Below are positions 13,721 through 21,140 of a DNA stretch of 38,427 nucleotides, piece after piece (positions within the stretch are counted from its first letter, which is position 1; each line of letters starts with the position of its first letter). The notes under the pieces were generated by a model. The model was not told where the DNA came from and did not search any database. It saw only the letters and a program-made list of their open reading frames with translations. The stretch is from positions 1 through 38,427 of the forward strand of contig JAUSJX010000122.1 in NCBI GenBank assembly GCA_030647435.1. The letters run 5' to 3'. The stretch comes from Candidatus Rokuibacteriota bacterium (lineage in GTDB: Bacteria > Methylomirabilota > Methylomirabilia > Rokubacteriales > CSP1-6). Position numbers and translations under genes: made by a program.

Positions 13721-15322
13721 ATGACGACCTCGAAGACTCTCCGCCTCTTGGCTTCCCTCGCGCTGATCGCCGCGCTCGCCGCGCCCGCTGCCCAGGCGCA
13801 GGACAAGCCGCGTCCCGGCGGCATCCTCACGTGGTTCGACTACGGCGATCCGGGCCGCCTCGACGTCCATGCCGAATCGCCCCTGGTTGTCCAGCAGGCG
13901 ACGGCGGGCGTCTACAGCGGGCTCCTGCACTATGAGCCGGACGATCCCGCCAAGATAGCCGGCGACCTGGCCGAGCGCTGGACGGTCTCACCCGACGGGA
14001 AGACGTACACGTTTTACCTCCGAAAGGGCGTCACGTGGCACGACGGCCAGCCCTTCAGCGCGGCCGACGTCAAGGCCTCGTTCGACCGCATCCTCAGCAA
14101 GGACTTCCAGAGCCCCAAGTGCGGGGCCTCGCTCAAGCCCATGGTGGCCGCGGTCGAGATGGTCGACGCGAATACCGTCCAGTTCAGGCTCAAGTTCCCG
14201 GCCGCCCCGTTCCTGCCGTCGCTGGCCTCGGCCTGGTGCCGCGTCGCCGCGAAGCACATCCTGGCGAAATACGGCGACCTCAACCAGCCGGAGGCGCAGA
14301 TCGGCACGGGGCCCTTCAAGTTCAAGAAGTACGAGCGCGGCAGCGTGATCGAGTGGGAGAAGAACCCGAACTACTTCATCCCGGGCCTGCCGTATGTGGA
14401 CGGCGTCAAGCAGTTCATCCTCGTGGGCGGGCCGACCCAGCTCGCGGCCGCGAAAGCCGGCAAGATCATGCTCTGGGATGCCTGGCCGCCCATGCGCAAG
14501 ACGCAGGCCGACGAGCTCGGCCGGGCCCGGCAGGACGTGGACATCTACCAGGCGTCCATCAACACGATCTTTCTCATCTACCTGAACTCGCAGAAGCCGC
14601 CCTTCAACAACCCGGACCTGCGCCGCGCCGTCAACCTCGCCCTCGATCGACAGGAGATGGTCGCCAAGGCTCTCGAAGGCGCGGGCGTGCCCTGCGGCAT
14701 CCTCGATCCGAAGCTGTCCGGCGACTTCGCCCTACCGCTCGAGGAGGTCAACAAGATCCCGGGCTGCCGCCAGCCGAAGGACGGAGACATCGCCGAGGCC
14801 AAGAAGCTCGTCGAGAAGCACTACCCGAACGGCGTGGACATCGAGGTCGCGGTGCGCTCCGTGGGCAACTACGTCGACCGGGCCCAGCTCGTCATCGCCC
14901 AGCTTCGCAAGGCCGGTATCCGCGGGACGCTCAAGACGCACGAGAGCGCGGCCGGCTACGCCGCCTGGGGTAAGGGCGACTTCACGCTCATCGCCACCCA
15001 GGACCGGGCCATGGACGTCAATGACCCCTCGGGCGTCTTTCACATCGCCTACACGACCGAGGGCGGGAGCAACTACGGCCGCATGTCCGATCCCAAGATC
15101 GACGAGCTGGCCGACCGGGCTCTCCGAGAGTCGAACAAGGACAAGCGCAAGCAGGCCTACTGGGAGCTCCAGCGCTACATCCTCACGCGCGGTGACACCG
15201 CCACGGTGGCCGTGGCGTGGGTCGAGGGGTGGTTCTTCAAGGATAAGCGCGTGCAGAACTACAAGCCTGGGCTCACCGTCTACGACAACAACACGTTCAT
15301 GAGGGTGTGGATCAGCCCGTAG
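13721..15322 (+). CDS. ABC transporter substrate-binding protein, family 5 (DppA type)
   Basis: A 533-residue periplasmic binding protein. It opens with a Sec signal peptide (LRLLASLALIAALAAPAAQA, cleaved near residue 27). The family-5 signature is visible as VTWHDGQPFSAADVKASFDRIL, and GTGPFKFKKYERGSVIEWEKN is the second conserved block. Family members bind peptides, nickel complexes or oligosaccharides; the ligand is not readable. AAGGAG lies upstream of the ATG at 13721. It belongs with the two permeases before it. Confidence 0.92.
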   Translation: MTTSKTLRLLASLALIAALAAPAAQAQDKPRPGGILTWFDYGDPGRLDVHAESPLVVQQATAGVYSGLLHYEPDDPAKIAGDLAERWTVSPDGKTYTFYLRKGVTWHDGQPFSAADVKASFDRILSKDFQSPKCGASLKPMVAAVEMVDANTVQFRLKFPAAPFLPSLASAWCRVAAKHILAKYGDLNQPEAQIGTGPFKFKKYERGSVIEWEKNPNYFIPGLPYVDGVKQFILVGGPTQLAAAKAGKIMLWDAWPPMRKTQADELGRARQDVDIYQASINTIFLIYLNSQKPPFNNPDLRRAVNLALDRQEMVAKALEGAGVPCGILDPKLSGDFALPLEEVNKIPGCRQPKDGDIAEAKKLVEKHYPNGVDIEVAVRSVGNYVDRAQLVIAQLRKAGIRGTLKTHESAAGYAAWGKGDFTLIATQDRAMDVNDPSGVFHIAYTTEGGSNYGRMSDPKIDELADRALRESNKDKRKQAYWELQRYILTRGDTATVAVAWVEGWFFKDKRVQNYKPGLTVYDNNTFMRVWISP

Positions 15323-15347
15323 CCGGACGGCTCCAGGAGCAGGAGCG

Positions 15348-15929
15348 ATGGACGCCGTCGGCTTCTTCCTGGCCCGCTACGGAGAGGTCCACAAGGGGCT
15401 GGTGGACGGCCTCTTCGGAAGCCTCTCCGAGGCGCAGCTGCGCGCGCGGCCGCATTCCGGCGTCAACACCGTCGCGTGGCTCCTGTGGCACTCGGCGCGC
15501 ATCGAGGACGTTGCGCTCAACCGCTTCCTCTCCGACCGGCCCCAGGTGCTGGGGGAATGGCTCGAGCGCCTCGCGGTGCGGCGCCGCGACGTCGGCACCG
15601 GCATGAGCGACGCCGAGGTGGACGAGCTCTCCGCGCGCATCAACCTCAACGCGCTGCGCGGCTACTGGGAGGCGGTGACTGCTCGGACGCTCGCGACGGT
15701 CGAGACGCTCCGCGGCTCCGACCTCGAGGCGCAGGTAGCGGCCGAGCGCGTCAGGAGCATCGTCCTCTCCGAGGGCGTGGTCGCCCCCGGCGCCGAGTGG
15801 CTCACGGATTTTTGGGCGGGAGGCCGGAGCCGCGCCTGGGTCCTCGCCCAGACCGCTCTTCTCCACCCGTACGGTCACTACTTCGAGGCGCGTGTCGCGG
15901 CCGGGCTTTGGGGGACGCGCAGCCCCTGA
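15348..15929 (+). CDS. DinB-like protein
   Basis: A 193-residue four-helix protein of the DinB superfamily. Likely metal ligands are His48 (LLWHSARIED) and His173/His177 (HPYGHYFEA). It is distinct from the DinB-like protein at 5752 (different spacing, no close identity). A ribosome binding site (GGAG) lies six bases upstream of the ATG. It follows the binding-protein gene by 25 bases and may be cotranscribed, with no obvious functional tie. After its stop the same frame stays open for another 32 codons (see 15954-16028). Confidence 0.8.
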   Translation: MDAVGFFLARYGEVHKGLVDGLFGSLSEAQLRARPHSGVNTVAWLLWHSARIEDVALNRFLSDRPQVLGEWLERLAVRRRDVGTGMSDAEVDELSARINLNALRGYWEAVTARTLATVETLRGSDLEAQVAAERVRSIVLSEGVVAPGAEWLTDFWAGGRSRAWVLAQTALLHPYGHYFEARVAAGLWGTRSP

Positions 15930-15953
15930 GCGGCCGGGCCTAGGGGTGTCGAT

Positions 15954-16028
15954 GTAACTCCTGGTGAGTTCAACCTCTCCTGGCGGGAACACTTCAGCGG
16001 CATCAAGACTTTCTTCGAGCTGCTGTAG
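15954..16028 (+). pseudogene. Possible coding remnant before the AbiE island
   Basis: The 173-base gap between the DinB-like and AbiEii genes contains a 24-codon stretch whose translation looks protein-like (GEFNLSWREHFSGIKTFFEL, then Leu and TAG). It has no start codon or ribosome binding site of its own and is in the same frame as the DinB-like gene, beyond its stop. It could be the tail of a gene cut off when the island arrived, or chance. The family was not recognised. The rest of the gap shows nothing further. Confidence 0.2.
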
Positions 16029-16102
16029 GATTCAGGCAACGTCACCTTGACGCCGATGAGTGAAGTGGCTCAGAGGGCGAAGTGCGAAGGTCTTCTGCGA
16101 AT

Positions 16103-16963
16103 TTACCGGGTACGTCTCGTTCGCGTTGTTGGCAGAAGCGCTGACCGCTTGAGCTCTCGCTGAACGGTCCGGAACACCCGCTCGAACTCAGGGAGGTTTA
16201 GGACTTGGGCGGCTAGCCTCTGTTCCCAGGATTGTCTTAGCCGGACTTCCTTGGCGTCCAATTCATGTCCTAGTAGTGGGCCTCGTGCCTTGAAAGTCAG
16301 CTTTTGGGTGAGTGCTTCTCTCAAACGCCCCAGATCGACGTGGCCTCCGTCTACGAGAAACCATAAATCGTGGAGGTCTCGGGGCTCATTTCGCACAGGG
16401 TCGGTCAAGGCCATGATTTTCTCGGTTGCGATTTCGTCAAGTGAGTAGACCTTAACCCGTGCTTGTGGTAGATCATCGTATTCCGGATAGGGCAGTACCA
16501 ATCCGTCCGCTAGAGGGAAAACCACGAGCTCGCGAATAGTGATGTCAACCTTGATCTCGTCTGGACCGCCGGCTCGGGGTATAGGTCCGCGGAAACTAAT
16601 ATAGAAAGTAAAACTGTTCTGATGCACTTGGAGATCTTGACCAGCGAAACCGAAAGAAACGCCGCTCAGGCGCTGAGTGTCCGCAAAGCTGTCCTCGAGA
16701 CCCTTCCGAATCTCCTCGAAGGGTATACTTGGGTCAACAAGCGAAAAATCCAGATCCTCTGAAAAGCGGTAATCCAAGAAGTAGCAGCGCTTGAGCGCTG
16801 TCCCTCCCTTGAAGGCTAACAGGTTCCGGAGGCGGTTCCGAGAGAGCCCGACAAGACACCAGGCAATGCAGTAGTCGCGCTCAAGAATTCGCTCTTGGAC
16901 CCGACGCCCGTCCGCGCCCGCCAGTCTGTTTCCCAGCTGGGCCAATCTGCGCTGCGAAATCAT
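16103..16963 (-). CDS. abiEii: Type IV toxin AbiEii, nucleotidyltransferase
   Basis: A 286-residue nucleotidyltransferase-fold toxin. The motifs of the family are present: the glycine motif KGGTALKR (52-59), the metal-binding SEDLDFS (68-74, Asp70/Asp72), a lysine-rich KVYSLDEIATEKI (171-183) and RDLHDLW (195-201). AbiEii-type toxins add nucleotides to tRNA or other RNA and halt growth on phage infection; the partner AbiEi acts as antitoxin and repressor. It starts four bases after the antitoxin stop, as usual for this operon. Base composition here is clearly less GC-rich than the flanks, pointing to transfer. Confidence 0.93.
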   Translation of the reverse strand: MISQRRLAQLGNRLAGADGRRVQERILERDYCIAWCLVGLSRNRLRNLLAFKGGTALKRCYFLDYRFSEDLDFSLVDPSIPFEEIRKGLEDSFADTQRLSGVSFGFAGQDLQVHQNSFTFYISFRGPIPRAGGPDEIKVDITIRELVVFPLADGLVLPYPEYDDLPQARVKVYSLDEIATEKIMALTDPVRNEPRDLHDLWFLVDGGHVDLGRLREALTQKLTFKARGPLLGHELDAKEVRLRQSWEQRLAAQVLNLPEFERVFRTVQRELKRSALLPTTRTRRTR

Positions 16964-16967
16964 CGAT

Positions 16968-17840
16968 CTATGTCGCCACGGCAGCCTGTAACTCTTTGGG
17001 AGTTAGATTCAATCGAAGTCGCCATCGTCGTTGAAATTTGCCAGCGGATGGCAGGCTGGGGTCCAGGAGCACATAGGTATTGGTCAATCTGCGGCGGAGA
17101 CGGTCAATCTCGATCGGTGCAGAGAGTTGCCAAAGCTCTAGAAGGAAACCAAGACGGCGAACAACAGCGCCGATGTCCAGCCGAAGGGCATACTCCACGA
17201 GACGTTTCAGATCCACCTCGTCTCGTCGCATCCAAAGGCCCTTGGCAACTTCCAGTATGCCTCCGCAATAATCTGGATCCTTGAGCCCATCAATCACGGT
17301 GCGCTCAATGTCACTAGTGACCACTGAATGAGTGGGGTCGGCCCAATGACTGGTCGTACCGAAGAACCGGGACTTGGAGATCCTTGGGAAGCGAAAGTCG
17401 ATACCTGCGATCTGTTGTCGAGGAATGGTTCGGAGAGTAGTGACGTATATGGTGTGTTGGGGTTGGGTCAGCATCTTATGAATGTCCATTGCGGTCGCAT
17501 GAGATAGGTAGTAGTGGCGTCCTCCGGCAAGCTCATGAGCGACGGCGTAAGGATTGCCGATGAACTGGCGTACATGGCCAAATTCGAACGGGACGAGGAC
17601 AAATAGTCCCGGTTTGAGCCTTGTCGCTATCCCGCGGCCTACTAGCTTGGCCATGAAGCTACGGGCGGGGCCAGGTTTGAGTCGTGAAATTGTTCGGACG
17701 TCTCGGATCGAGAAGATGGATCGATTACGCTCAGTAAGCTCAGCAACGAGATGGGATGCCTTGGGGCCAAGGGTCTTAAAGGTGCGCTGACTTGCAGGTT
17801 TGCCCTTTGCGGGTCCTAGAGATTGATAGGTCCGTTTCAT
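16968..17840 (-). CDS. abiEi: Type IV antitoxin/repressor AbiEi
   Basis: A 290-residue two-domain protein: an N-terminal winged helix (about residues 25-90, SIRDVRTISRLKPGPARSFM) and a C-terminal antitoxin domain with YYLSHATAM (110-118), HTIYVTTLR, and IERTVIDGLKDPDYCGG (178-194), ending with QRRWRLRLN. AbiEi proteins counter AbiEii without binding it and repress their own operon through paired inverted repeats. The matching pair of palindromes lies 41-121 bases upstream. An AT-rich TATATT hexamer at 17847-17852 is six bases before the ATG, so the transcript may be leaderless. The gene is divergent from a second AbiEi-like gene. Confidence 0.92.
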   Translation of the reverse strand: MKRTYQSLGPAKGKPASQRTFKTLGPKASHLVAELTERNRSIFSIRDVRTISRLKPGPARSFMAKLVGRGIATRLKPGLFVLVPFEFGHVRQFIGNPYAVAHELAGGRHYYLSHATAMDIHKMLTQPQHTIYVTTLRTIPRQQIAGIDFRFPRISKSRFFGTTSHWADPTHSVVTSDIERTVIDGLKDPDYCGGILEVAKGLWMRRDEVDLKRLVEYALRLDIGAVVRRLGFLLELWQLSAPIEIDRLRRRLTNTYVLLDPSLPSAGKFQRRWRLRLNLTPKELQAAVAT

Positions 17841-17880
17841 GTTACTAATATAACAGATGTGATAGTTGGATGTACTATAA

Positions 17881-17897
17881 GTACCCTGTGGGGGTAC
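17881..17897. promoter_or_regulatory. Operator-like palindrome O1 of the abiE operon
   Basis: GTACCC-TGTGG-GGGTAC: six-base arms and a five-base spacer, extended by ATA/TAT one base further out. It lies 41-57 bases upstream of the abiEi ATG, over the likely -35 region. O2 repeats the same arms 64 bases away. Confidence 0.75.
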
Positions 17898-17944
17898 GTA
17901 TGCTAGTAGCCGAGGTCATAGTGGTTATACTGGAATCTCAGTTA

Positions 17945-17961
17945 GTACCCTGGTGGGGTAC
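17945..17961. promoter_or_regulatory. Operator-like palindrome O2 of the abiE operon
   Basis: GTACCC-TGGTG-GGGTAC, with eight-base arms if the flanking TA is counted (TAGTACCC/GGGTACTA). Same arms and spacing as O1. Paired inverted repeats bound cooperatively by AbiEi are known from a streptococcal system, which is why these are assigned to AbiEi. They could also serve the divergent AbiEi-like gene. Confidence 0.75.
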
Positions 17962-17991
17962 TATATGAGTTCAGAGTATCACACCAGAAGC

Positions 17992-18065
17992 TAGATCACG
18001 GGCCTCCGGCGCCTTTTGGGAAGGTATATATACCGACCCAAAAGGCGCCGGAGGCCCGTGATCTA
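17992..18065. repeat. 74-bp near-perfect palindrome between the divergent abiEi genes
   Basis: Two 29-base arms (17992-18020 and 18037-18065) are exact reverse complements; the 16-base centre itself contains the 12-base palindrome GGTATATATACC. The arms begin TAGATCACGGGCC and end CTTTTGGG. It ends 21 bases before the ATG of the rightward AbiEi-like gene and would form a very stable hairpin in that leader. The arms stop abruptly, and the sequence outside them is not symmetrical. Terminator, cruciform, small non-autonomous element or recombination site are all possible. Confidence 0.9.
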
Positions 18066-18086
18066 CGCCCTCAGTCATTGCCACAC

Positions 18087-18965
18087 ATGAGCTGCTCACA
18101 GGCTAGTTCTTTGCGAGTCCAGATGGCGGCGTACTTCAGCCGCGCGAATACGCGTGTCCTGCGTCCCAAACAGCTCACTAGCCTTCTCCAGGAGAACAGA
18201 CGGACGTGGCCCTTGCCGGCCCAGCTTTCCGATCGGGGCGTCATTGGCGCGATCCTACAGTCGACGGATCTCAAGGAGGTTACGCTCCACGCCGAGAATG
18301 ACTATCGGGATGTTCGGCGCTACGTCTGGGGACGTGTCTCCGAGTACGAACTCGCCCTATCTCTTAGGCCGGAGTCCTACTTGTCTCACGCGACCGCCAT
18401 GTTCCTGCATGGCCTTACTGACCGGCGCCCAAAGACGATATACGTCAACCAGGAGCAGAGCGCGAAGCCTAGACGAGAAGCAGTACTGACCCAAGAAGCC
18501 ATCACGAGGGCGTTCGCGGCAACACAGCGCCAATCGAAATATTCTTTTCGACACAACGACACTCGAATCGTCGTCGTCAGCGGTAAGAACTCGAAGCGAT
18601 TTGAGGTTGCCCTGCTATCGACCCAGGAAGGTGAAGATCTTCCCGCGACCGGTCTTGAGCGAACACTGATCGATATTACTGTGCGCCCAACCTATGCCGG
18701 CGGAGTTCGCAATGTCATGCGAGCGTTCGAGCTGGCCAAAGGACGCCTGTCGGGTCCCAAGTTACTAAAGACCTTGCTGCGCCTCGATCATACCTACCCA
18801 TATCACCAACCATTGGGATTCTACCTGGAGCGAGCCGGTTACCCGGCGAGGGAAGTCTCGCCACTTCGGAGCAAGGGTTTTAGTTTTGACTTCTATGCAT
18901 CGCATGGTCTCAAGGATCCTGCGTATGATCGCCGCTGGCGTCTGTACTACCCCCGAGAGGTCTAA
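18087..18965 (+). CDS. Second AbiEi-like protein without a toxin gene
   Basis: A 292-residue protein that shares the antitoxin-domain landmarks of the AbiEi next door: YLSHATAM (98-105), PKTIYV (115-120), ERTLIDITVRPTYAGG (191-206) and a closing DRRWRLYYP. The N-terminal part differs more but has the size of a winged helix. No AbiEii-like gene follows: the next rightward bases to 19130 hold no gene. It may be an orphan antitoxin, a regulator, or the partner of an unrelated toxin elsewhere. A start at 18123 (MAAYFSRAN) is also possible; neither start has a good ribosome binding site. Confidence 0.8.
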   Translation: MSCSQASSLRVQMAAYFSRANTRVLRPKQLTSLLQENRRTWPLPAQLSDRGVIGAILQSTDLKEVTLHAENDYRDVRRYVWGRVSEYELALSLRPESYLSHATAMFLHGLTDRRPKTIYVNQEQSAKPRREAVLTQEAITRAFAATQRQSKYSFRHNDTRIVVVSGKNSKRFEVALLSTQEGEDLPATGLERTLIDITVRPTYAGGVRNVMRAFELAKGRLSGPKLLKTLLRLDHTYPYHQPLGFYLERAGYPAREVSPLRSKGFSFDFYASHGLKDPAYDRRWRLYYPREV

Positions 18966-19111
18966 GGTGCGGGCCGCTAGTTGTTCGCAGCGAGCTTCTT
19001 CTTTCTCTTGAGAGTCCCAAGCAATCTCCATGGTATGTAAAAGTCCCCGGAAGCAAGGCATTTCCCATCATTGACTTCAGGAGGCAGGTACCGCTATGAA
19101 CGTCACATCTC

Positions 19112-19129
19112 CTGACCCATCGGGGTCAG
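19112..19129. terminator. Hairpin after the LLM gene
   Basis: CTGACCC and GGGTCAG form a seven-base stem with an ATCG loop, immediately after the leftward LLM stop at 19130. There is no T run, so it is only a weak terminator candidate. The rest of the 18966-19129 gap shows no gene. Confidence 0.35.
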
Positions 19130-20041
19130 CTACAGGTTGGGGAGCTCCCGGCGCACGTCGGCGAGGCGGGCGAGGGAGCCGAGGACCTTGGGGTGGTTGT
19201 CGGTGAGGTGGCGGACGATGATGTCGGTGTAGCCGAGTGGCTCGAGGGCGCGGAACTTCTCCACGACCTGCTCCACCGAGCCCCAGCAGAGCGCCTTCGG
19301 GTCGAAGCCGCGATACCCCGCCTTGACCATCGCGTGGCCCACCGCGTCCGCCTCGGCCGCAGACTCGCCGACGTAGATGTCCCGCCTGATCGCCACCGCG
19401 GTCGGCTTCTTGCCGTACTTGGCGCAGCCATCCAGGTACCAGGCCGCCTGTTCGCGCGCCTGGTCGATGGTGAGGCCGGGCGAGGCGAGCCAGCCGTCGG
19501 CGATGCGCGCCGCGCGGTCGATGGAGACCCGCGCGCTGGCGCCGATCCAGTACTCGACGGGCTCGACGGGGCGCGGCGCCACGCGCGCGTTCTCGACGAC
19601 GAAGCGGCCCTGCGATGACACGGTCTCGTCCGCGAGGAGCTTCTTTACGAGGGCGAAGGACTCTTCGAAGGCCGAGGGGCGCTGCTTGATGTCGGCGCCC
19701 ATCGCGAGAAACTGCGCCTCGTCGGCGCCGAGCCCGCACTGGAAGATGAAGCGGCCGCGCGCGATGGCGGCCAGCGTGCCGACCTGCTCGGCAACCAGCA
19801 CGGGATTCCAGAGCGGCAGGAGGAAGAGGCAGCCCGCGGGCTTTTCGTCCCACTCGGCGAGGAGCCGCCCGAGCATGGGCACGTTTTGGTAATAGGGCTT
19901 GGGGACGGCGTGGTGATCGCCAAGGAAGAGCGAGTCGAGGCCCGCGCGGCGCGCGGCCTGAGCCCGCTCGATCATCCAGCGCGCGCCTTCGCGCGGGTCC
20001 GCGACGTCGTGGTGGTTCGTCAGCGAGATGCCGACGCTCAT
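19130..20041 (-). CDS. LLM-class (luciferase-like) oxidoreductase
   Basis: A 303-residue flavin-type TIM barrel of the LLM superfamily, different in subgroup from the one at 7035. Segments seen: GISLTNHH at the N-terminus, AGLDSLFLGDHHAVP, NVPMLGRLLAEWD and GRFIFQCGLGADEAQF. The substrate and the choice of FMN or F420 are unknown. The ATG at 20041 gives the standard family N-terminus; the open frame continues upstream into the MFS gene, and a second ATG five codons earlier is possible. It is last in a leftward run with the MFS transporter 16 bases upstream. Confidence 0.87.
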   Translation of the reverse strand: MSVGISLTNHHDVADPREGARWMIERAQAARRAGLDSLFLGDHHAVPKPYYQNVPMLGRLLAEWDEKPAGCLFLLPLWNPVLVAEQVGTLAAIARGRFIFQCGLGADEAQFLAMGADIKQRPSAFEESFALVKKLLADETVSSQGRFVVENARVAPRPVEPVEYWIGASARVSIDRAARIADGWLASPGLTIDQAREQAAWYLDGCAKYGKKPTAVAIRRDIYVGESAAEADAVGHAMVKAGYRGFDPKALCWGSVEQVVEKFRALEPLGYTDIIVRHLTDNHPKVLGSLARLADVRRELPNL

Positions 20042-20057
20042 CGCACGATCTCCCATG

Positions 20058-21140
20058 TCAGAGGACCAGCAGGAGGCCGAGGGCCGCCAGGAGACCCATG
20101 CCGCCGCCGAAATAGAACGGCGACGCGGGGCCGAGCCATGTCCAGAGCGCGCCCGCGATGAGGGAGGCGGGGAAGAGGCCGATCCCCACCAGGGTTCCGT
20201 GCAGGCCCATGGCCGTGGCACGAAGCTCGCGGGGCGCGAGGTCGGTCACGAGCGCCTTTTCGACTCCGTCGGTGAAGCCGCTGTAGAGACCGTAGAGCGC
20301 GAAGAGCGCCCAGATCAGCCACGAATGCCCGAGACCGTCCAGGAGGGCGAAGCCCAGGTAGACGAGCCCGTAGAAGAGATAGCCCGCCACGAGGAGCGCC
20401 TTGCGGCCGATGCGGTCCGACAGGCGGCCGACCGGATAGGACGACAGCGCGTAGCTCACGTTGTAGGCGCCGTAGAGGAGGATGGCGGCCGCGGCGCTCA
20501 TGCCCAGGTCCTGGGCCCGAAGCAGGAGGAAGGCGTTGGACGAATTGCCGAGAGTGAAGAGGAGCGTGATCAGCAGGAAGAGCCGAAGGCGTCCCGGCAG
20601 CGCGCTCCAGCTGAGTCGAGGTGGGGTGACACGCGGCCCCTCGTGCCTGGGCTCGCGCACGGCCAGGAGCATCAGGAGACCAGCCGCGGCGGGGAGGAGG
20701 GCCCAGAGGAAGACGCGCGTGTACTCGCCCGGCATGCGGGTGAAGAACCAGTACCCGAGCGCCACTCCGACGACCGCGCCCCAGGTGTCGAGCGTCCGGT
20801 GGAGGCCGAAGGCGCTGCCGCGCTTCTCGGGGTGCGCGCTGTCGGCGATCAGCGCGTCGCGCGGCGCCGTGCGTATCCCCTTGCCGAGCCGGTCCACGAC
20901 CCGCGCCGCCAGCACCATGCCCCAGCCCGCGGCCAGCGCCAGCAGCAGCTTGCCTATCGCGCCCGCGCCGTAGCCGGCCATGGTGAGGCCTTTGCGCCTT
21001 CCGATCAGGTCGGAGATGAAGCCCGAAAAGACTTTGAGGAGGCTCGCCACGCTCTCGGCCAGGCCTTCGATAAGCCCCAGCACGGCCGGGCTCGCGCCGA
21101 GCGCGGCCGTGAGAAAGAAGGGCACGAGCGGGTAGACCAT
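20058..21140 (-). CDS. MFS transporter
   Basis: A 360-residue major facilitator with about eleven to twelve membrane segments. The loop motif DLIGRRKG (between segments 2 and 3) and its second-half twin RLSDRIGRKA are clear. RLGKGIRTAPRDALIADS is typical of one MFS group often annotated as multidrug or sugar efflux. The first ATG (21140) leaves segment 1 short: codons upstream read RNIVLLGLTSFLTDISSE, the family's usual N-terminus, but contain no ATG, GTG or TTG; an ATC at 21197 would overlap the stop of the upstream gene. So the true start is uncertain. Leftward operon between the molybdenum hydroxylase and LLM genes. Confidence 0.85.
   Translation of the reverse strand: MVYPLVPFFLTAALGASPAVLGLIEGLAESVASLLKVFSGFISDLIGRRKGLTMAGYGAGAIGKLLLALAAGWGMVLAARVVDRLGKGIRTAPRDALIADSAHPEKRGSAFGLHRTLDTWGAVVGVALGYWFFTRMPGEYTRVFLWALLPAAAGLLMLLAVREPRHEGPRVTPPRLSWSALPGRLRLFLLITLLFTLGNSSNAFLLLRAQDLGMSAAAAILLYGAYNVSYALSSYPVGRLSDRIGRKALLVAGYLFYGLVYLGFALLDGLGHSWLIWALFALYGLYSGFTDGVEKALVTDLAPRELRATAMGLHGTLVGIGLFPASLIAGALWTWLGPASPFYFGGGMGLLAALGLLLVL

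Follow-up and report, generated by a model that had tools for sequence, protein, structure and literature searches.

In the 38,427-nucleotide stretch analysed here (the window; contig JAUSJX010000122.1 of the Candidatus Rokuibacteriota assembly GCA_030647435.1), which belongs to a 5.79-Mb genome from a lineage of large-genome, GC-rich bacteria, an AbiE toxin–antitoxin (TA) operon stands head-to-head with a second gene of the AbiEi family, here called P3, which has no toxin of its own. We give about an even chance to the reading that P3 is a modular third TA component, i.e. an AbiEi-family regulator that would have lost its own AbiEii and been kept back-to-back with another toxin operon. In favour of this reading, a divergent toxin operon lies directly opposite P3 at 14 of the 17 assessable loci at which P3 is found without an AbiEii of its own, the neighbouring toxins being of several different families.

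The operon itself (16103-17840, minus strand) is an ordinary AbiE system. Its toxin gene, abiEii (16103-16963), encodes a 286-aa protein of the DUF1814/PF08843 nucleotidyltransferase family (E=1.7e-36; 126.8 bits against a cut-off of 22.5; PADLOC AbiEii 4e-70), and is preceded, with a gap of 4 nt, by the antitoxin and regulator gene abiEi (16968-17840; 290 aa), which is recognized as AbiEi by PADLOC (3e-75) and scores only 17.9 bits with the Pfam model AbiEi_1, under the cut-off of that model. Orthologous AbiEi–AbiEii pairs are present in five relatives from the same phylum at 54-59% identity. In AbiE systems the antitoxin neutralises the toxin without contact. On the plus strand, across a 246-bp common intergenic region, P3 (18087-18965) is transcribed divergently from abiEi and encodes 292 aa from the ATG at 18087, so that the open reading frames (ORFs) are present as had been claimed in the preliminary description of this DNA, which pointed out a toxin-less AbiEi-like protein head-to-head with a full AbiE operon. 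No Rfam RNAs or tRNAs were found in the window.

P3 carries an AbiEi C-terminal domain, with PF09407 (AbiEi_1) scoring 32.3 bits against a curated cut-off of 22.2, and in a single comparison it aligns with the cognate AbiEi at 28% identity over 196 aa (E=5e-9), a likeness that by this alignment exceeds chance. The motifs YLSHATAM, P-x-Y-x-GG and RRWRL are common to both proteins, as described earlier, whereas the ERTLID that had also been listed as shared occurs in P3 only, the cognate AbiEi having ERTVID. The AlphaFold2 model of P3, built with 69 homologues, has a mean pLDDT of 95.7 and combines a winged-helix N-terminal domain with an AbiEi-type C-terminal fold; the nearest solved fold is that of Rv2827c (1zel_B, Z 13.9 over 245 residues), followed by the AbiEi of S. 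agalactiae (6y8q_A, Z 11.9 over 189 residues). Structure prediction, which had been suggested for both proteins, thus gave a high-confidence AbiEi-like fold for P3, while the model of the cognate AbiEi, made from 8 sequences, was moderate (pLDDT 68.6) and was set aside. On the Pfam match and the modelled fold, P3 is therefore counted as an AbiEi-family protein with a predicted DNA-binding-type N-terminal part. It was also correctly noted that no AbiEii follows it: neither a gene nor a remnant was detected in six frames within 1.5 kb downstream. The possibility that P3 is the antitoxin of an AbiE pair of its own was accordingly rejected, the only AbiEii of the window adjoining the other AbiEi.

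Searches of plasmids and genomes gathered a P3 family in which three layouts can be distinguished. In the commonest, P3 lies tail-to-tail with an AbiEii gene, the 3' ends often overlapping; in several Gram-positive plasmids it is head-to-head with AbiEii without another annotated antitoxin alongside; and in the third it is solo, with no AbiEii of its own. The first layout is seen in L029-L034 and most of L043-L120, which are convergent, non-operonic AbiEi–AbiEii pairs with palindromes on the antitoxin side only, and the second in the plasmid loci L140-L145, where the P3-family protein is annotated as hypothetical and 2-3 near-identical palindromes lie between the two genes. On a tree of 87 P3 proteins the solo label needs 10 changes, of which at least 4 are forced by well-supported branches, and solo status is therefore polyphyletic on this tree, having arisen more than once. 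The head-to-head arrangement, which it had been proposed to seek in other genomes, does recur: the exact gene order of the window is found in L092, from an Omnitrophota metagenome-assembled genome (MAG), and in L083, from an Acidobacteriaceae MAG in which just 193 bp are available 3' of P3. Neither of their P3 proteins is a sister of that of the window, L092 being separated from it by a branch with 98/96 support.

At the other solo loci, different operons take the place of AbiEi–AbiEii. P3 stands opposite further subtypes of AbiE, pairs of an AbiEi-like protein and a nucleotidyltransferase, in L138, L101 (with DUF6577), and L104 and L105 (with DUF6088), opposite a 430-aa protein and an NTP_transf_8 protein in L035 and L036, opposite a 354-aa protein and a nucleotidyltransferase-like protein in L061, opposite HipB–HipA in L075 and L081, opposite HipB–HipS–HipT in L062, and, in a frameshifted form, opposite HipA alone in L067. 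By comparison, of the 62 convergent loci for which 1.5 kb or more upstream of P3 is available, a toxin-type gene lies within 3.2 kb upstream in 3 and directly opposite in 1, and an independent Pfam scan of the nearest upstream genes of convergent loci returned AbiEi domains in two and unrelated genes in the rest. Fisher's exact test of solo against convergent loci gives between 8e-12 (against 1/62) and 3e-10 (against 3/62), values which have to be read with the knowledge that the toxin families counted were picked out only after the solo loci had been inspected, and that these loci are partly related and thus phylogenetically non-independent. Several further points also weigh against a modular role of P3: the solo genes of L077, L121 and L087 have no divergent toxin operon, which shows that P3 can stand alone; the clustering of toxin genes in defence islands could explain part of the association; and the two palindromes that often precede P3 (see below) are similarly spaced in convergent loci lacking a divergent operon, so that they may serve P3 alone.

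Two of the neighbouring operons deserve separate mention. In L035 (140-1961) and L036 (4141-6298) the gene for the 430-aa protein is upstream of the NTP_transf_8 nucleotidyltransferase gene and overlaps it by 11 nt; the L036 copy of the protein has no Pfam or PADLOC match, and the two genes look like an undescribed TA-type pair. Another such pair is possible in L061 (3741-5716), where the proteins of 354 and 301 aa, judged nucleotidyltransferase-like by eye, are likewise without Pfam or PADLOC match.

The regulatory sequences between the divergent genes of the window fall into two classes. Two GTACCC-N5-GGGTAC sites, one proximal to abiEi (17881-17897) and a second copy at 17945-17961, are spaced by 64 bp, and two-copy equivalents (consensus GTGCCC-N5-GGGCAC, spacing 73-74) precede abiEi in L012, L013, L015 and L092, three of which are without P3, while L014 has a single copy and L011 and L083 have no GTACCC-type match before abiEi. 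Because two-copy equivalents occur in P3-less relatives, these sites are assigned to AbiEi as its putative operators and not to P3, which speaks against the earlier suggestion that the two regulators share them. P3 belongs instead with an operator class of its own, centred on GTATATATAC. Its putative operator in the window, absent from the preliminary description, is a 74-bp palindrome (17992-18065) with 37-nt arms and 2 mismatches, the longest arms of all those found, whose single-strand DNA fold is calculated at -45 kcal/mol (z -14.9) and whose conserved core GGTATATATACC (18023-18034) occurs nowhere else in the 5.79-Mb genome. The window P3 shares this trait with its family: the core ATATATAC is found upstream of 75 of 99 P3-family genes, against 4.5 expected, and the genes have one to four GTATATATAC-centred palindromes, usually at about 35 and 90-150 bp upstream of the start codon, in all layouts. 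In members with a readable promoter, for example L056, L103 and L120, the palindrome covers the P3 -10 box and start region, the -10 box lying in the left arm. Assignment of the palindrome to AbiEii or to canonical AbiEi was rejected, since it is absent upstream of convergent AbiEii genes (0/66) and before the canonical abiEi genes of loci without P3 (L011-L015; 0/5).

In the mechanism that we propose, each regulator would act on its own operator class, AbiEi at the two GTACCC-N5-GGGTAC sites and P3 at the GTATATATAC-centred palindrome. P3 would bind this palindrome, which in family members with a readable promoter lies over the -10 box and start point of the P3 gene, and would repress its own gene; from there, with the nearest AbiEi site (the distal one) 31 bp away, it would occupy or reshape the shared region and in this way also set how strongly the toxin operon is expressed. 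We infer such an effect on the adjoining toxin, and consider transcriptional coupling more likely than direct neutralisation because the neighbouring toxins differ chemically, comprising nucleotidyltransferases as well as HipA kinases.

The main rival explanation, which we hold to be unlikely though worth serious consideration, is that solo P3 is an orphan antitoxin that neutralises the convergent-type AbiEii of incoming plasmids (anti-addiction), and that its toxin-operon neighbours reflect the co-travel of defence and stability genes. Plasmids commonly carry relatives of P3 that have an AbiEii beside them, and orphan antitoxins in plasmid leading regions have been discussed (PMC11541004). 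Selection does not separate this explanation from a modular role of P3. The two solo pairs near enough to be compared have dN/dS values of 0.17 (L035/L036) and 0.14 (L075/L081), next to about 0.06-0.14 for convergent pairs, so that on these ratios toxin-less P3 is maintained by purifying selection and is not decaying, which is compatible with an orphan antitoxin too. What an orphan antitoxin does not predict is a toxin operon placed head-to-head, as observed at 14/17 solo loci against 1-3/62 convergent ones.

It is less probable still that P3 acts directly on the adjacent toxin as a second antitoxin, in a two-key neutralisation of AbiEii. Consistent with that, P3 has the AbiEi C-terminal domain and the AbiEi/Rv2827c fold, and in L140-L145 the P3-family gene is the only antitoxin candidate beside the head-to-head AbiEii; however, an AbiEi of matching subfamily is already present for the AbiEii of the window, and neutralisation of both HipA kinases and NTP_transf_8 proteins, which are found opposite members of the P3 family, is unlikely for one protein.

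That P3 is a relic brought by chance next to another independently transferred gene is very improbable and already largely contradicted, even if P3 is rare (4/396 genomes when one phylum was sampled) and decayed copies exist. In L067 (5830-6868), and also in L135, a frameshift splits the P3 that faces a HipA gene into two overlapping ORFs; the genome that bears L067 (G095) has a second, intact P3 at L061. Absence or decay of the second gene at related loci had been named in advance as the sign of chance juxtaposition; what is observed instead is purifying selection on solo P3 genes, with L067 as an isolated case of decay, and this, together with the recurrent and independent head-to-head layout, makes chance juxtaposition and decay unlikely. 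In the window, the ORF and the 74-bp palindrome are intact and the locus forms one clean cassette (15930-19150, 3.2 kb) that contains nothing but AbiEii, AbiEi, P3 and the regulatory region between the divergent genes. Its empty site is seen in a congener (G003, locus L151) that matches window positions 13828-15929 and 19151-20621 at about 90% with 26 nt between them, and likewise in a second one (G002, L148), where the match is broken at 15929/19141; the GC content of the cassette is 55.0%, against 69.1% in the remainder of the window. As the empty site is clean and the low-GC segment has only these genes, the simplest reading of these alignments is that the three genes arrived, or were lost, as a single unit.

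Least probable of all, and hardly credible, is the idea of P3 as a decoy or phage sensor competing with AbiEi at its two sites: the proteins have their AbiEi architecture in common and lie on either side of one intergenic region, but sites of that type are found in P3-less relatives and the operators of P3-family genes are of another class, no phage-related evidence for such a role was found, and P3 had no match in phage records and one in viral contigs, in the convergent layout.

The palindromes have a further property, in that their self-complementarity is conserved and the sequence of their arms largely is not. Across 171 sites from 81 loci the GTATATATAC core is fixed, whereas base usage in the arms is near uniform from about position 8 outwards; the arms are nonetheless 80-96% complementary at positions 6-14, with left and right arms pairing in 91-96% of cases for positions 8-13 and in 80% for position 14, where shuffling gives 26-32%. 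Identity is 0.97 within a palindrome, on average 0.42 between the arms of copies from one locus (0.35 excluding the Gram-positive head-to-head plasmids) and 0.28 between loci. Matched changes on both arms are found between the close relatives L035/L036, L075/L081 and L047/L048; in the last pair, whose P3 proteins are 85% identical, the arms beyond the common CCCAGGTATA are largely different and yet perfect, which suggests fast coupled change. Two other explanations were tried and rejected, namely intrinsic terminators, for which there is no T-run match, and RNA hairpins. On neither strand is G-U in excess among the arm mismatches (of 128, 20 are GT/TG and 26 AC/CA, about chance), and with the -10 box in the left arm the full hairpin would not be transcribed; from these patterns, the self-complementarity is taken to act on DNA and not on RNA.

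A reader of sequence needs no such arms, and therefore either the structure of the DNA is read or a mutational process, e.g. template switching, keeps the palindromes perfect. Tentatively, and with more doubt than conviction, we suggest that P3-type AbiEi proteins recognise DNA structure, an extruded cruciform or hairpin with a TATATATA tip, that their promoters read topology or single-strandedness, and that this switch has in evolution repeatedly been added, as a third component, to toxin operons that are unrelated. Extrusion of the AT-rich core would be easy, and the signals read by such promoters would be changes in supercoiling, phage takeover or incoming single-stranded DNA. Arms are conserved, however, in a betaproteobacterial branch and in the Gram-positive plasmids, which makes the reading of arm sequence possible in some lineages. 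Upstream of P3 in the betaproteobacterial loci (L031, L096, L111-L118), the palindromes are centred differently and their arms are conserved (TGCTATGCAGCGTT and similar).

Type IV TA loci are currently viewed as two-gene, single-operon systems. If the modular role of P3 is correct, this reusable AbiEi-family partner without a toxin would serve chemically unrelated toxin operons as a plug-in controller, and many AbiEi-like genes now annotated as hypothetical or orphan may share one role. The sequence-free, self-complementary operators at about 80 loci offer a direct route to ask whether a bacterial regulator reads structure or sequence, and the structure-reading version, if true, would be more novel than the layout of the cassette. 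In line with the earlier statement that no AbiE system built in this way was known, the open literature that was searched, which excluded subscription journals, yielded no AbiE system in which a toxin-less gene of the AbiEi family stands divergent to the operon, and no description of the GTATATATAC palindrome class.

Among known arrangements, the convergent AbiEi–AbiEii pairs (e.g. L029-L034) have antitoxins of the same family as the window P3 (36-47% identical) and the same class of upstream palindrome; they differ in that an AbiEii lies tail-to-tail with the antitoxin gene and the 3' ends of the two overlap. HipBST and other three-component TA systems likewise join a TA locus with an extra protein, and in L062 it is a HipBST-like operon that P3 faces. 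To our knowledge the extra components of such systems are co-operonic, whereas P3 is a separate divergent gene whose family differs from that of its neighbours except in AbiE loci. The operon of the window resembles the type IV AbiE system described by Dy et al. 2014 (PMC3985639), in which a bicistronic abiEi–abiEii with a DUF1814 toxin and a two-domain antitoxin/repressor is preceded by a pair of inverted repeats; the window has the same bicistronic build, DUF1814 toxin, AbiEi and inverted-repeat pair, with putative binding by AbiEi, and has in addition P3, a third gene, of the AbiEi family, which is transcribed divergently and has no toxin to itself. The AbiEi-type antitoxin Rv2827c of M. 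tuberculosis, which is paired with the MenT4 toxin Rv2826c (PMC7319586), offers the nearest solved fold to P3 (1zel) and also has several inverted repeats upstream. Unlike P3, Rv2827c is followed by its toxin and binds sequence repeats of 23 bp (PMC7319586), whereas P3 is toxin-less and its palindromes conserve self-complementarity and not the sequence of their arms.

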